DNA of 64,000 nt, taken from the NCBI RefSeq assembly GCF_003443655.1, contig NZ_CP031941.1, positions 1,855,501-1,919,500 on the forward strand. The letters are read 5' to 3'. The position numbers and the translations under genes were made by a program. Every line of letters starts with the position of its first letter. Position 1 is the stretch's first letter. This stretch comes from Nostoc sphaeroides (GTDB lineage Bacteria > Cyanobacteriota > Cyanobacteriia > Cyanobacteriales > Nostocaceae). Under the pieces are notes generated by a model. That model searched no databases. It saw only the letters and a program-made list of their open reading frames with translations, and had not been told where the DNA came from. Positions 9,342 through 34,841 of this stretch are shown in pieces.

Positions 9342-10289
9342 ATGCCTAAAATTACTGTTTGCGTTCCTACTTTTAATCGTGTTCATCTCCTCCCTTATGC
9401 GATTGACAGTGTACTTAATCAGTCTGAGCAAGACTTTGAGCTAATTGTTTGTGATGACGGTTCTAGCGATCGCACACCTGAGTTAATGTCACAGTATACA
9501 GACGATCGGATTAAATATATCCGTCATCTGCAAAATATTGGTAAAAGTAATAATATGCGATCGGGCTTTGATGCAGCCAGTGGTGAATATTTTATTAAGT
9601 TTGATGATGATGATCGGTTAACACCCGATTTTCTCGCAAGTACCGCAGCTATTCTTGCTCAAGACTCTAGCATTGATTTTGTTGGTACAGACCATTGGAT
9701 AATTGATATTGATAATGTGCGGGATGAGGTAAAAACTCAAGAAAATTCTCATCGCTGGGGTAGAAAGAATTTACCAGCAGGTGTTGTAGATAATTTGTTG
9801 GAAGTTGTATTTATTCAGCAAAGTTTTCAAGTTGGGGCGACATTATTTCGCCGTAAAACATTGCAAGAATTAGGATATATGCAGCCAAATCTGCAAAATT
9901 GTGAGGATAATGATTTATTTGTGCGTCTGGCTTTAGCTGGAAAAAAGGGTTATTACTTACCAGAATTATTGATGGAATATCGCTCTCATGCAGAGCAGCA
10001 AGGTATCAATCGGGCTATTCCTTATTTATATGATAAAATACGATATTTAGAAAGTTATAAGTTTGAGTCAGAAAAAATTGAGACAATCAGGAAAAATCGT
10101 CTAACTGAAACGCAATTATTATTAGGTTTGCGTTTAATTGAAAAGGGTGAAACGCAAAAAGGGAGAGAGCTAGTTTTAGCAGGACAGTCTTTTTCAACTT
10201 CTAAAGCTTGGACTGGTTTAGGCTTATCGTTGTTACCAGTTGGGTTGCGAGGTAAGGCGTTTAATGCACTGCGACAGGTGCGGGGTTAG
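9342..10289 (+). CDS. Family 2 glycosyltransferase
   Basis: 315 residues. The GT-A core is clear: VCVPTFNRVHLLPYAI at the N-terminus, IVCDDGSSDRT, and the metal-binding aspartates in KFDDDDRLTP (about residues 86-95), followed by the NCEDNDLFVRLAL acceptor-side motif near residue 185. It transfers a sugar from a nucleotide-sugar to a glycan or lipid at the cytoplasmic face of the membrane. It is isolated, so the polymer it serves is unknown. No membrane segment is visible. Confidence 0.93.
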   Translation: MPKITVCVPTFNRVHLLPYAIDSVLNQSEQDFELIVCDDGSSDRTPELMSQYTDDRIKYIRHLQNIGKSNNMRSGFDAASGEYFIKFDDDDRLTPDFLASTAAILAQDSSIDFVGTDHWIIDIDNVRDEVKTQENSHRWGRKNLPAGVVDNLLEVVFIQQSFQVGATLFRRKTLQELGYMQPNLQNCEDNDLFVRLALAGKKGYYLPELLMEYRSHAEQQGINRAIPYLYDKIRYLESYKFESEKIETIRKNRLTETQLLLGLRLIEKGETQKGRELVLAGQSFSTSKAWTGLGLSLLPVGLRGKAFNALRQVRG

Positions 10290-10650: not shown

Positions 10651-11406
10651 CTACCTATTTTGTGGAATAGTTGGGGTAGGTTGGTAAGTTGAGTTGGATC
10701 TCAGTTGACTAATCACGAAGAATGTAGCAAGAGTTAATGCTATAGATACAAGTGCGATCGCTAAAGAGTTAGTCTTCCAAAAGCTCAGTTTTCCTTGTGT
10801 ATAAGCCCTATTGGCTATATTCACTTCCCGCCTAGCTTCTTCTAAAATTGATTGGAGCGCATTTATCTGCTCATCTTCCAGTTTTGCATATCTATCTTGT
10901 CTAAAAGCATTTTCTAGAATTTTTACTTTTTCCTCAGAAGATACTTGAGCAAGTTCTCTCTTGACAACTTCATACGGATTAGTTTGCTTTACAGGTTGTG
11001 AAGATGGAGTTTGAGAGTTTGGTTGAAAATTTTGTTGAGGAAATTTCTCCAGTTTCTCATGTTTGACGGGTTGTGAGGATTGATTTGGCAGAATTGGTGG
11101 TTTAATCGGAGTATCTTGTCGAATTTCTTTTTTGGTGAAACTGTATACGTTATTTTGCGTTACAGGTTTAGCTGATTGGTTTTGAGGTGTTCGTGGTTGA
11201 GTTGGGATACGCTGATTATTACCTATTTCATTTGTCTTCAATGACCATTTGTACTCACTATCTTGGACAACCATATTCTTCAATGAAGAATATAAGTAAT
11301 GATTGACTTCCCGTCTTTCAACTCCCAGCATATCAGCAATTTTTACTGCTCTTAGGGGAGTACCACGTTTTAATATTTCAACAATTTTAGATTCCAGACT
11401 ATCCAT
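10651..11406 (-). CDS. Zalpha-like winged-helix protein with C-terminal membrane anchor
   Basis: 251 residues. Residues 1-57 form a winged helix: ADMLGVERREVNHYLYSSL, then QDSEYKWSLK. The pattern N35-x3-Y39 followed by W54 matches the three residues that contact left-handed Z-DNA or Z-RNA in Zalpha domains. A long Gln/Pro/Ser-rich linker (about 60-145) and a charged helical stretch (about 146-210) follow. One hydrophobic helix (about 214-235) and a short polar tail end the protein, so the winged helix probably faces the cytoplasm. It is third in an operon after a nuclease-like/ParA fusion and a ParB-like gene. The nucleic-acid role is inference; the fold match is by pattern only. Confidence 0.7.
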   Translation of the reverse strand: MDSLESKIVEILKRGTPLRAVKIADMLGVERREVNHYLYSSLKNMVVQDSEYKWSLKTNEIGNNQRIPTQPRTPQNQSAKPVTQNNVYSFTKKEIRQDTPIKPPILPNQSSQPVKHEKLEKFPQQNFQPNSQTPSSQPVKQTNPYEVVKRELAQVSSEEKVKILENAFRQDRYAKLEDEQINALQSILEEARREVNIANRAYTQGKLSFWKTNSLAIALVSIALTLATFFVISQLRSNSTYQPTPTIPQNR

Positions 11407-11448
11407 ATTAGCCCCGAATTATTCTTGCAATTAAGATGTGACTAAATT

Positions 11449-12192
11449 TTAAATAAACAAGGTACGTGACCAGCTATCAATAATAGCAATCATTTTATCG
11501 CTAGTTATACCTTTAATTTGTCTTTTCCCACTTGTAATTTTTACCCGTGCAACTACATCATTCAAAGATGCAAACGGTTTTTTATTACGTTCTTTTTCCA
11601 CACTTTCAGTAACCTTAGTGGCTGTTTGATTGCTAAAACCAGCATTTACCAATCTCAAAGTCAGTTCTGATAAACTTAGAGTATTAAATACATCTAAAGG
11701 TCTAATTTGCTTGGGTATCTGACTTTGAATTTTATTTAGCTTATTTTCTACCCTTTCTCTTTCTTGTGCTAATTCTGACCTAAAATCATTGAGTTGTTTC
11801 TCAAGGCGCAATTCCAGATTTGCTATACGCGATGATTCTAAATTTGTTGTTTGAGTTATGGGATTTACTGGTTGATTAGAAAACTCGACCCCTCTAAGGG
11901 CAGCAGCTTGCTTTAATATTGCTTCCTCTTTCTCTGGCGAAATAATCAATGCATTAACCATTTCACCAGCAATAGAGTTTTTTTCACTAGCTCTTACGGC
12001 AGCATAGTATTCAAAATGACCATTCACTACTTCATATTTTTCAAAGCCAGTCTTTTTAAGTACTAAAGGTTTTACAATTCCACCAGAATTTAAGATCATA
12101 TCTGCAATCATATTTAAATCAGATTCTGAGAATTGCGAACGCGGAACATTGGAATTAACACTTTCAACATCTACCATCAAAAACTTCGTCAT
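11449..12192 (-). CDS. ParB-like protein with C-terminal helix-hairpin-helix
   Basis: 247 residues. The N-terminus (GGIVKPLVLKKTG, then YEVVNGHFEYYAAVRA, about residues 37-70) follows the ParB/Srx-type fold, with NGHFEYYAA in place of the usual GERRxRA box; this is the region that binds CTP in true ParB proteins. A coiled coil (about 120-165) leads to a C-terminal KPFASLNDVVARVK...ITSDKMIAII segment resembling a DNA-binding helix-hairpin-helix. No central ParB helix-turn-helix is obvious. Its ATG overlaps the ParA stop as TAATG, implying coupled translation. It is likely the DNA-binding partner of the ParA-like protein. Confidence 0.75.
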   Translation of the reverse strand: MTKFLMVDVESVNSNVPRSQFSESDLNMIADMILNSGGIVKPLVLKKTGFEKYEVVNGHFEYYAAVRASEKNSIAGEMVNALIISPEKEEAILKQAAALRGVEFSNQPVNPITQTTNLESSRIANLELRLEKQLNDFRSELAQERERVENKLNKIQSQIPKQIRPLDVFNTLSLSELTLRLVNAGFSNQTATKVTESVEKERNKKPFASLNDVVARVKITSGKRQIKGITSDKMIAIIDSWSRTLFI

Positions 12193-13601
12193 TATTGTAT
12201 CTCCATTTTTCTTAGAACTTCTACAGCTAAAAACTCAAATTCAGCAGCAGCTATATTTGCCGAAGGTTCGTTATCAGCAAAATCTAAAATAGATTTAGGA
12301 TCGGGAATCTCCAGATTTCCTAATGGTATAGTTCTGTTAATACAAGCTGAAAAAGCTGTCCTTTCAGAAATAGTACTATCCATAAGAGGTAATTCATAAC
12401 GGTCAGTAATCACACCTTTATGCTTATTTAAATTATACTTAAGATATTGAGCATTAGTTGATATCTTAGAGGGAAGCACGCCCATAATTTTGATAGGTGC
12501 TTGACCTTCACCTTCCCTATTTTCAGATATTTTTTGTTGAATAAAATTTTTGACACTTATCAAACCTTGATTAGAAAATGGTTTTAAGTCTGAAGGAATT
12601 ATTAAATAATCAGCAGCAGTCAGCGCCGCTTCAGCATAGAGATCCAAGGATGGTGGCGTATCGATAATTACAATATCATAATCATTTCTGACTTTTTCTA
12701 ATTTTCTAGATAGCCGAAACCGACTAGCAGCGAAACCGACAAGGTTAGATTGATTTTCAATTAAGCTTATATGTGATGGAATTACATCAATTTCTGGGTT
12801 ATTAAAAAAATGAGATTTCCGAACAATCTCTGGTATAAAATTAGTTTTACCTTGTTCTAATATATGATAAACATTGCGGTCTTTCAAATCATCATCTTCT
12901 TCAAATTGAAATTTAATTAAACCAGTAGCAAAAGTTGTATTAGCTTGAGCATCTATATCAATTAGAAGAATTCTTTTTCCTTTCTTACTCAAGGCTGCTG
13001 CCAAATTAATAGCAACTGTGGTTTTACCTACGCCACCTTTATGATGGTAAATTGCAATTGTTTTCATTGAATGTTGCCTCTTGGTTTCAATACTAAAATC
13101 AGAAATAACTTGAATTGGTATTTTATTACTTTGAATATCTTTATTATCCAAATTAAATTGGATAGATTTTTCCTGCAAACTGTTTCTACCAATTAAACCT
13201 TTAATATTCTCTAATTTAGTCTCAACTTCTTTGCCAGAACATTGAAATACTAATTGAATATCAGTCTGTAATTTTTGATAAATTCTAATCTCTTTGCCAT
13301 TAGTCAACAATCCATACCTGACATTTAAGCTGGTTAAATAATGCCTGAGTCGAGGGACATGATGATTTAAGTTTTTTTTGGGATGCTTTGCCTCCATGAC
13401 GACACTTAAGGGCGAATTGGCATCTAAGACAAAGGGAATCACTTGTGCAGCAAATGCTAAAAAATCTAAGCGGATGCTACCAACGGCAACCTCTTGATGC
13501 CAGGTGTCAGGAGTATAACCTAGCTGCGGTAGCAAATATTGCACTATGAGTTTGCTTTCAACTTCGCTTTCGTTACGGCATAGCTCAGGATTAAAAGGCA
13601 A
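12192..13601 (-). CDS. ParA-family ATPase fused to an N-terminal nuclease-like domain
   Basis: 469 residues. Residues 1-125 resemble the N-terminal domain of type I restriction HsdR and related PD-(D/E)XK proteins: RLDFLAF (D46) then SVVMEAKHPKK (E70, K72). Residues 179-469 are a ParA/Soj ATPase with deviant Walker A HKGGVGKTTVA (K188 and K193) and LLIDIDAQANTT. An internal Met179 could start a ParA-only protein, but the upstream frame is clearly coding. The full-length start is TTG at 13601, about 11 nt after GAGG. ParA dimers on the nucleoid position cargo; here the fused domain may bind or cut nucleic acid. First gene of the three-gene operon. Confidence 0.8.
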   Translation of the reverse strand: MPFNPELCRNESEVESKLIVQYLLPQLGYTPDTWHQEVAVGSIRLDFLAFAAQVIPFVLDANSPLSVVMEAKHPKKNLNHHVPRLRHYLTSLNVRYGLLTNGKEIRIYQKLQTDIQLVFQCSGKEVETKLENIKGLIGRNSLQEKSIQFNLDNKDIQSNKIPIQVISDFSIETKRQHSMKTIAIYHHKGGVGKTTVAINLAAALSKKGKRILLIDIDAQANTTFATGLIKFQFEEDDDLKDRNVYHILEQGKTNFIPEIVRKSHFFNNPEIDVIPSHISLIENQSNLVGFAASRFRLSRKLEKVRNDYDIVIIDTPPSLDLYAEAALTAADYLIIPSDLKPFSNQGLISVKNFIQQKISENREGEGQAPIKIMGVLPSKISTNAQYLKYNLNKHKGVITDRYELPLMDSTISERTAFSACINRTIPLGNLEIPDPKSILDFADNEPSANIAAAEFEFLAVEVLRKMEIQ

Positions 13602-16581: not shown

Positions 16582-16926
16582 CTACAATGCTACTGCAAAA
16601 TCTGTGTACTGCCGCATCTTAGGCTCATGGAATGCCAAAACTATATCTTCTTTGGCAACACCTGCACGAACTAGGTCAGTTGCGATTCCATCTTCAGTCC
16701 AATCTTCCTCAATCCAAAATTTGCAATCTCGAATCCGAACGTAGACAGTCATACCAGTAATGCGTTCGCCATTTTGCCAACCAAGGTTCATCCAGATATA
16801 GTGACCCTTTGGCTCATCAATAATCAAGAATGTTTCCATGTCTCGGTTATGACGACGGTTACATAGTTCTACATACTCTGTCAGGATACGCTTAATTATC
16901 TTGGGATACTCAGTTAATTTATCCAT
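16582..16926 (-). CDS. xisI: XisI-type protein (fdxN element excision factor family)
   Basis: 114 residues, typical length (ITGMTVYVRIRDCKFWIEED and DLVRAGVAKEDIVLAFH are family landmarks). In Anabaena, XisI with XisH helps the recombinase XisF excise the fdxN element in developing heterocysts. Here it overlaps xisH by 13 nt, as is usual, but there is no xisF and no recognisable excision element. Many cyanobacterial xisHI pairs are similarly free-standing and may act as a toxin-antitoxin-like or regulatory pair; that is inference. Confidence 0.92.
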   Translation of the reverse strand: MDKLTEYPKIIKRILTEYVELCNRRHNRDMETFLIIDEPKGHYIWMNLGWQNGERITGMTVYVRIRDCKFWIEEDWTEDGIATDLVRAGVAKEDIVLAFHEPKMRQYTDFAVAL

Positions 16927-17330
16927 TGTGTGATTTGCTCTGTTTCTGTATCGACAACAATAAGTGGAAGTTGATGTTTGTGGAGGATGAGTTGAATCAC
17001 ATCCTGGTTGAAAAAACTTTTATAAATGATCGCACCAACAGCAAGGTAAAGTTTACGGTCTGGTGCTGTTTCCTCTAAAAGATAACGGTAGATGTCATAC
17101 TGTCCGAGAGCTTCTTTCAAATCTTGTATCTTTGATGCACCAACAAAGCTTTTCACTTCAATAACAAGTTTTTGCCCATCTCGTTCAGCCCCGATGGGAC
17201 GTTCAGCACCGAGATCAGCATATAATGTTGTTCTTCGATACTGAATTATGTAGGGATCGTCTGTAATCACCCAACCGTCCTTTATCAGTGCATTTTTTAC
17301 CGCGTTATGGATAATGTCTAACTTGGGCAT
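16914..17330 (-). CDS. xisH: XisH-type protein (fdxN element excision factor family)
   Basis: 138 residues, typical length. It has the nuclease-like pattern YADLGAERPIGAERDG followed by KLVIEVKSF, in which D and E-x-K sit as in PD-(D/E)XK folds. A later IQDLKEALGQYDIYRYLL helix is also characteristic. XisH is required, with XisF and XisI, for fdxN element excision in Anabaena. It is upstream of and overlaps xisI. The nuclease-like core raises the possibility of DNA binding or cleavage, not demonstrated here. Confidence 0.92.
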   Translation of the reverse strand: MPKLDIIHNAVKNALIKDGWVITDDPYIIQYRRTTLYADLGAERPIGAERDGQKLVIEVKSFVGASKIQDLKEALGQYDIYRYLLEETAPDRKLYLAVGAIIYKSFFNQDVIQLILHKHQLPLIVVDTETEQITQWIN

Positions 17331-33614: not shown

Positions 33615-34841
33615 CTACACTTCTGCTTCGCAGTAAGTGTAGGCTTCCAAGACAATCCGGCTATTGCTTAGGAGACTCTTGGCTTTAAGAACGGAATGCC
33701 CTACCGCCCTTTTCTTTATATTAATCGCAGCATTATGATCCCTATCCAAGTTGCATGAACAATGAGGACAACTATGCCATCTCTCATGCAGCTTTTTAGG
33801 AACTTTAGCCCCACAATTAGAACAATCTTGAGATGTGTTTTTTGGGTTAACAGCTATCACAAGCAAACCAGCATTTTCGGCTTTATTTGCAAGAATTGAT
33901 AAAAAGCTTGACCACCCAGCATCATGAACTGACTTTGCTAGTTTGGACTTTGAAAGTCCTTTGATGTTTAAATCCTCATGGACTATGACATCATATTTTT
34001 TGAGTAAATCATTAGCAGTTTTGAAGTGAAAATCCCGACGTTTGTCAGCAACTTTTTTATGTTGCCTACCTAGTTGCTTAACTGCTTTTTGTCTCCCTTT
34101 ACTGCCCTTTTTACGTCTAGATACTCGCTTCTGAACCACTATGTTGCGTTTTTGTGCTTTTCTATAATGTTTTGGAATAGCAACAACTTCACCTTCAGAA
34201 GTTGTTAAGAACTCTTTTAATCCCAAGTCAATGCCAGTAATCGATTCGGGATTAATGTCGGGCTTAACAGTAGGAACTGTAGGGTCTTCTAGGCTTAAAG
34301 TGATGTAGTATCCATCTGCTTTTTTGGTGACAGCAGCAGTTTTAATTTTGAAACCAGTAGGTAGTTGACGATGCAAAACAACTTTTATTAACCCCAACTT
34401 TGGGAGATTAATCAAGTTATCCTGCAAGCAGTCTTCTTTCATCTGAGGATAAGTGAAGGTTTTGTATCTACTTCTAGATTTAAACCTTGGTTTGCCACTT
34501 TTCTGACCGTTGCTATCACCTTTCAGAAATCTGTCAAAAGTTACCTTAACTCGCTTAACAACATCTTGCAAAACTTGTGAATAAATATCACCGTAATGGG
34601 GATGACTTTTCTTCAGTTCAGGCAATGTTTTCTTTTGAGAGTAGTAGTCTGGATTATCTCTTAATTCTGGGAGATGACAAACTAGTGGACAAGCATTGAC
34701 AGGACTACGGTTTTGTTCGTACCAATTAAATCTATCTGCCAACAAATAGTTATACTGAGCGCACAACATAGATAACCATCTATCTATCTCTGCGGCTTGC
34801 ACTTTTGTTGGACGTAGCTTGTACTGGTATGCAATCCTCAT
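33615..34841 (-). CDS. tnpB: TnpB-type RNA-guided nuclease (IS200/IS605 family)
   Basis: 408 residues, complete. RuvC residues are D205 in [11 protein letters not shown]289 in VHEDLNIKG, and the DRDHNAAIN motif (D366/D368). The zinc ribbon CSNC...CPHC is intact and [17 protein letters not shown] precedes it. It is therefore probably active. It is a different subtype from the copy at 5278: the start ([13 protein letters not shown]) and the spacing differ. Its stop lies inside the right-end hairpin, where the guide RNA scaffold should map. The predicted target-adjacent motif, from the insertion junctions, is TTAG. Confidence 0.95.

Follow-up and report, generated by a model that had tools for sequence, protein, structure and literature searches.

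In ParABS partitioning systems, a deviant Walker ParA ATPase and a ParB-fold partner are encoded in one operon, and the ParB CTPase carries the Box II motif GxxR. A locus of similar make-up lies in the chromosome of the cyanobacterium Nostoc sphaeroides, within a stretch of 64,000 nucleotides that we refer to as the window (contig NZ_CP031941.1, 6.53 Mb, of a 6.68-Mb genome; positions 1,855,501 to 1,919,500). Here three co-directional minus-strand open reading frames (ORFs), which we call A, B and C, follow one another, A overlapping B by TAATG and C starting 42 nt after the end of B, as an earlier first-pass annotation of the letters had described. The likeness to ParABS lies in A and B, which supply the ATPase and the ParB-fold partner; in contrast to ParABS, A also carries a PD-(D/E)XK nuclease domain, and B has neither a parS-reading helix-turn-helix nor the Box II arginine, its C-terminus being a helix-hairpin-helix (HHH)-like, a Rho_N/SAP-like or a third type of domain. 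We suggest that A–B probably serves DNA defence of a kind not yet described, and not ordinary partitioning; that it is specifically a chromosomal, restriction-like module that targets DNA is a function we infer and to which we give even chances.

Several described systems share parts of this arrangement. The ParB fold was surveyed in 2025, and according to the accessible text only ParB–DUF3850 fusions consistently adjoin parA (PMC12704722). The defence system ARMADA II is composed of a BrxHII-like helicase, a PglX-like methylase, a RelE–UvrD protein and a YprA-like helicase (PMC12458937); ParA and ParB do not appear as whole words in the main text of that paper, nor ParA in that of a 2026 survey of BREX (PMC12839542). 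Pairs of a nuclease and a protease are, according to the accessible text, recurrently captured by several unrelated immune systems (PMC12799240), and the ParA–ParB pair described here is likewise a two-gene module joined to unrelated systems. Gene A recalls HsdR of type I restriction in its HSDR_N match and D…ExK residues, and differs from it in lacking a superfamily 2 (SF2) motor or translocase in a Pfam scan; neither HsdM nor HsdS was recognised by eye among the listed ORFs of the window, with no family scan of all neighbours. No nuclease–ParA fusion, and no ParA–ParB in BREX or ARMADA, was found in the accessible passages of the literature searched, which excluded supplements and subscription papers, and the first-pass statement that no described system with this set of three was known holds for that literature.

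Gene A encodes the predicted fusion of a nuclease-like domain to ParA. Residues 179-357 match Pfam AAA_31 (E 3.1e-55), a PDB profile search places this half near Soj, ParA and also McdA entries, and the N-terminus matches HSDR_N at 25.4 bits, just above the cut-off of 25.1, with its catalytic residues intact. D46, E70 and K72 are invariant in 36/36 nuclease-bearing members of clade 1, and equivalents occur in 19/19 members of a second, distant clade (clade 2, about 35% identical), counted in an alignment that was blind to the catalytic residues; this invariance argues that the nuclease domain is not a relic. The D…ExK residues are also found in 110/110 copies, a figure that is partly a product of construction, since the pattern by which copies were classed as 'fused', 'solo' (nuclease-less) or 'other' itself requires D…ExK, and the unselected counts are therefore the 36 and the 19. 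The deviant Walker A motif KGGVGKTT is present in 53/53 members of clade 1. The nearest named relative of A, from a Nostoc desertorum metagenome-assembled genome (MAG), is 96% identical.

The ParB-like nature of B, also proposed at the outset, was supported by Pfam (ParB_N, 31.5 bits; cut-off 26.3), by PDB profile search, by an AlphaFold2 model (mean predicted local distance difference test score, pLDDT, 82) and by Foldseek, which returned Noc, ParB, SbnI/SerK and sulfiredoxin. In the model a ParB fold (residues 3-104) is followed by a long helix (119-158), probably a coiled coil judging from the model, and a mainly helical C-terminal domain (165-243). The Box II arginine is replaced, giving GxxE, with glutamate at position 61 in 111 of 129 clade-1 sequences, and a parS-reading helix-turn-helix is absent from the model, just as the Pfam scan returned no ParB-type helix-turn-helix family. 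The C-terminus of the window's copy matches DUF655 and HHH_6 under the Pfam cut-offs and PDB entry 2i5h at E 1.1e-5. This end is exchanged between copies: among 148 distinct A–B pairs it is HHH-like in 108, SAP-like in 19, of the third type in 12 and unassigned in nine, the types having been assigned using profiles that were themselves made from sequences in this set. Among scanned examples of the SAP-like type, Rho_N exceeds the cut-off in loci L175 and L206 (L numbers denote individual loci) but stays under it in L078, L151 and L154. Unlike ends occur even where the A proteins are 72-80% identical, as in L077/L078/L079 or L088/L089. The best PDB match of the B profile, at E 9.5e-9, was to residues 1341-1405 of 9k3a_B, a chain named as a tail protein, which suggests that this chain may contain a ParB-like fold there. 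B is the sole chromosomal ParB_N protein found in the source genome; the only other one found lies on a 39.5-kb contig (C3, 382-648), with a ParA match close by (C3:1020-1487).

A and B are tightly linked. Named genomes were scanned and the best 80 loci kept. A was called in 79 of them, and in 78 of these 79 B lies within the next two ORFs; the exception, L161, stops at a contig edge. Across 291 genomes of the window's class, B was found in 80 and A, at E ≤ 1e-30 and with both clades counted, in 99. Within the window's family, Nostocaceae, presence is patchy, with A at E ≤ 1e-40 in only 55/109 genomes. Clade 2 has its own B-like gene after A in 17/19 loci, and one of the two loci without it lies at a contig end; a twentieth fetched locus, L155, proved to be a fragment of clade 1. 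Five clade-2 B proteins were scanned: ParB_N scores above the cut-off in L139 and below it in L151, L141 and L147, and is not matched in L154. Loci outside the Cyanobacteria include those of Desulfonema magnum, Thiorhodospira sibirica and Beggiatoa-type MAGs. Those of Desulfonema and Thiorhodospira, like those in MAGs from other phyla, are suggestive of transfer; binning errors may explain some of the MAG loci. The conserved co-occurrence of all three genes that the first-pass annotation proposed to look for holds for A–B and not for a fixed trio, C being found in 7/291 genomes against 99 for A and 80 for B: the durable unit is the A–B pair. Two further arrangements were seen. A lone clade-2-like B gene without a ParA of its own follows the clade-1 pair in L112, L113, L192, L193, L194 and L197 (assigned from the sequence in L112 and L113), and a second, separate ParA of about 294-333 aa adjoins A–B of both clades (L078:7492-8376, L087, L138, L151, L152, L154 and L280).

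The first-pass annotation had offered defence as one option, and independent support for it comes from nuclease-less copies that sit beside defence genes. In a quick tree of ParA (112 fused and 28 solo distinct rows, SH-aLRT support only), a fully supported branch separates clades 1 and 2, and the nuclease-less label changes, by gain or loss, at least eight times on well-supported branches. In L103, L104 and L116 the four ARMADA II genes (ArmA/ArmB/ArmD/ArmC) all have relatives on the same strand as the nuclease-less pair, and in L236 the fetched stretch holds the pair with relatives of ArmB, ArmD and ArmC. These loci were assigned to ARMADA by composition, the best names in PADLOC (2023) being DpdE/DrmD, DrmMI, GajB (NERD+UvrD/GajB model) and DruE, and they differ from ARMADA II in that ParA–ParB sits between the methylase and RelE–UvrD, and RelE–UvrD comes before the YprA gene. 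In L107 and L109 a PglZ-region protein and BrxL, as in BREX of the PglZ–BrxL type, precede the nuclease-less ParA–ParB in one run. A UvrD helicase (its PDDEXK end below the cut-off) and a Cas4-like PDDEXK nuclease come before the pair in L115 and L134, and a C5 methyltransferase follows it in L234.

In all, a defence-type neighbour lies within 4 kb of 9/27 distinct nuclease-less loci versus 0/112 distinct fused loci (0/116 rows). The Fisher p value is 1e-7 with loci that are not independent, and the contrast is biased towards nuclease-less loci because the defence gene set was drawn from them, so that defence genes of other types beside fused loci would have escaped it. The count covers 116 fused and 34 solo rows including repeats. 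The 28 distinct solo rows represent 27 loci, L116 having two, and the solo matches comprise 12 rows in 11 loci, or nine once L245 and L246, which are repeats of L115 and L134, are discounted; less than 4 kb was available on one side in 33/112 fused and 7/28 solo rows. One further locus, L250, was classed as 'other' and stands outside the 9/27; there the C-terminal half of a superfamily 1 helicase (AAA_12) precedes ParA in one fused protein, and this clade-1 pair directly adjoins a clade-2 A–B copy split into several ORFs (L250:7079-13152). That stand-alone copies carry a fused nuclease, and that nuclease-less copies lie beside other nucleases or helicases, is most simply read as ParA–B doing the targeting and the nuclease acting as the effector.

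A number of results weigh against a role in defence. None of the fused loci, which are the window's own kind, has a tested defence gene nearby, and when nine neighbours from fused loci and the window's glycosyltransferase were run through PADLOC, only two gave matches, one to a desaturase model and one, in L097, to the cysteine-desulfurase models DndA/SspA (E 2.4e-20). For A and B themselves PADLOC (2023) holds no specific model: B had no match at all, and A matched only PDC-M28B in its ParA region, with a weak mad2 match besides. A PDB profile search with the nuclease half of A gave no convincing relative of solved structure, the lone low E-value belonging to a chain named RPB_PLP3_R6, which we take to be a designed repeat protein. 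Among the nuclease-less loci, 18/27 have no detected defence neighbour. Three loci from one genus (L118, L119 and L120) have the pair 32-33 nt downstream of a ClpB-like gene, the ClpB-like gene being named from its sequence alone, and others adjoin housekeeping genes. Moreover, ParA–ParB adjoins only 3/20 ArmD-like places (≥51% identity, 291 genomes), some of the others lying at contig ends, which makes it an optional part of ARMADA. A possible link to Zorya, raised by ZorC matches of C and by ZorA/ZorB matches among the neighbours of L237, was dropped, as the matches were weak and the genes between encode a histidine-methyltransferase-type protein and PhoH.

The site of the module is itself variable. 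Beside the glycosyltransferase gene (window 9342-10289), relatives hold a clade-1 pair with varied B subtypes, a clade-2 pair, C alone or nothing. A relative of an Orc/KAP-type (AAA/KAP) ATPase (query L078_10) is also present at 8/20 such sites. In L280 the partner of the KAP/AAA ATPase is a fused exonuclease–PD-(D/E)XK–FtsK protein, and the two resemble the Orc/CDC6–HerA/FtsK systems in the accessible text of Rakesh et al. (PMC10853773). The L280 genes form a trio (L280:60-5621) of an unassigned protein of 283 aa, the ATPase of 678 aa and the SspH-like protein of 861 aa, in which a 3'-5' exonuclease, PD-(D/E)XK and FtsK are joined. Relatives of the ATPase or the FtsK protein occur near L078, L158, L159, L165, L166, L178, L184, L203, L206, L273, L277 and L278, and within 4 kb in 11/116 fused and 2/34 solo rows.

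Gene C had been called a membrane-anchored Zα-like protein, a description that stands in part. Its N-terminus is Zα-like, with a Pfam Z-alpha score of 15.0 bits, under the cut-off of 21. A PDB profile search with the winged helix was headed by PscE (3.8e-5), which is not a Zα protein, Zα-type proteins following from E 0.003; 21/38 matches bear the names of Zα proteins. N35, Y39 and W54 are invariant in 10/10 sequences, Asn, Tyr and Trp being the Zα recognition residues in ADAR1. C yielded a poor fold model (pLDDT 54.8, five alignment rows), with a low-confidence stretch followed by C-terminal helices with a hydrophobic segment, which would form the anchor. The winged helix is 52-55% identical to that of a 107-109-aa protein heading four similar loci (L126-L129), of which only L128 (7113-12142) was scanned, with matches to PbeA and PbeC models. 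The likeness to these Pbe-like loci (PbeABCD/CxC-ATPase defence) is confined to the winged helix, C differing in its added linker and anchor and its place beside A–B.

Four of the seven C matches in the class genomes cover the winged helix alone. Within the family C is matched in 23/109 genomes, once weakly; of the remaining 22 copies, 17 lie within 1 kb of a clade-1 A (including three remnants), two beside clade-2 modules (L278 and L280), two without A–B (L261 and L279) and one at a contig edge. C thus adjoins A–B in 19/21 evaluable copies, the three remnants included, and was seen beside A–B nowhere but in genomes from the window's family and from named Nostocales. As C is found with clade 1, with clade 2 and alone, its tie is with the locus and less with any single type of A–B; in the window's family it is an optional add-on.

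Table 1. Features of the A–B–C locus, in window coordinates.
Feature	Position	Strand	Basis or detail
Gene A: fusion of HSDR_N-type PD-(D/E)XK nuclease and ParA ATPase	12192..13601	-	469 aa, TTG start; Pfam
A, nuclease domain, aa 1-150	13152..13601	-	Pfam HSDR_N; candidate active site E11, D46, E70, K72
A, ParA domain, aa 179-469	12192..13067	-	AAA_31; Walker A KGGVGKTT, aa 188-195
Gene B: ParB-fold protein ending in a helix-hairpin-helix-like domain	11449..12192	-	247 aa
B, ParB fold, aa 3-104	11881..12186	-	Box II degenerate (GHFEYYAA)
B, long helix, aa 119-158	11719..11838	-	AlphaFold2 model
B, exchangeable C-terminal domain, aa 165-243, HHH-like in the window's copy	11464..11700	-	sub-cut-off Pfam, PDB match, model
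Gene C: Zα-like winged helix and linker, then C-terminal helices with a hydrophobic anchor; optional partner	10651..11406	-	251 aa
C, winged-helix domain, aa 1-60	11227..11406	-	shared with the 107-109-aa protein heading four Pbe-like loci
C, predicted transmembrane helix, aa 214-236	10699..10767	-	model helix (block pLDDT 60-77) and hydrophobic sequence

Elsewhere in the window lie an XisH gene (Pfam) with an XisI-like neighbour (16582-17330) and a gene for a TnpB-like transposase (33615-34841), the last two recognised solely by their letters.

From the domains, invariant residues, linkage, exchange of B ends, alternative alleles and defence association, we infer functions, interactions and cutting along the following lines. 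B would dimerise through its long helix and contact target DNA through its exchangeable C-terminal domain, its ParB fold binding and stimulating ParA. ATP-bound ParA dimers would search over DNA, and two nuclease domains could meet on such a dimer and cut the DNA marked by B. Where ParA has no nuclease, B–ParA may deliver the nuclease or helicase of the host system, be it ARMADA-type, BREX-type or UvrD with the Cas4-like protein. C may be an optional membrane-anchored nucleic-acid-binding accessory, possibly one that senses unusual or entering DNA.

The clear ParA and ParB folds, the standing of B as the only ParB_N protein found on the chromosome and the housekeeping genes beside some nuclease-less copies are also what one would expect if a variant ParA–ParB pair positioned a host cargo, such as a chromosomal region, the nucleoid or a protein body, the nuclease domain being either accessory or a relic that binds DNA. 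We consider this unlikely. A is missing from nearly half of the family's genomes and its neighbour genes differ between genomes, the B model has no helix-turn-helix and a changed Box II, and the invariant nuclease residues speak against a relic; in addition, the 64-kb window contains no parS-like site with up to three mismatches to the parS consensus (another type of site being possible), and no inverted repeat around A, B or C could be attributed to B. Cyanobacteria are polyploid, and a pair that gathers damaged or extra chromosome copies for the nuclease to trim or remove would suit such cells, as would the ClpB-like gene directly upstream in three genomes of one genus and an SbcD-like gene, named solely from its sequence, two genes past the solo pair in L117. 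Such a role in genome maintenance or DNA repair seems to us distinctly improbable, given that patchy presence, alternative alleles and exchange of a binding domain are unusual for housekeeping repair and that BREX and ARMADA surroundings do not amount to repair operons.

Plasmids typically carry ParA/ParB pairs, and the locus lies at a variable site, both of which would fit an integrated plasmid or phage that survives as a remnant or as a stabilisation cassette, akin to the left-over of a lost element that the first-pass annotation had entertained. The searches point the other way. B is absent from 72,556 plasmid records (tblastn). A matches 35 plasmid and 175 phage records by tblastn, none of which covers 80% of it, and its 25 viral-contig matches in IMG/VR all start at residue 166 or later and so miss the nuclease. 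A plasmid or phage origin was therefore rejected on the cover of A and on the absence of B from plasmids, B not having been searched in phages or viral contigs; with conserved residues and many intact copies besides, we hold a remnant to be very improbable. Exchange of the B end, patchy presence and, within the limits used, the lack of any nuclease-fused A in plasmid, phage and viral collections together make DNA defence a better fit than partitioning.

More broadly, we put forward, tentatively and with somewhat less than even confidence, that ParA/MinD-type motors are an unrecognised part of prokaryotic immunity: a ParA–ParB-like targeting module whose DNA-reading domain is exchangeable may have been captured repeatedly by the unrelated ARMADA, BREX and helicase–nuclease systems, and in nuclease-armed form may act alone in Nostoc and many other cyanobacteria. 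If so, the nucleoid-search mechanism that places plasmids and carboxysomes would also serve immunity, giving a testable answer to the question of how a nuclease locates foreign DNA and connecting ParA biology with BREX and ARMADA. It would also put a name to a gene pair matched in 80 (B) to 99 (A) of 291 cyanobacterial genomes.

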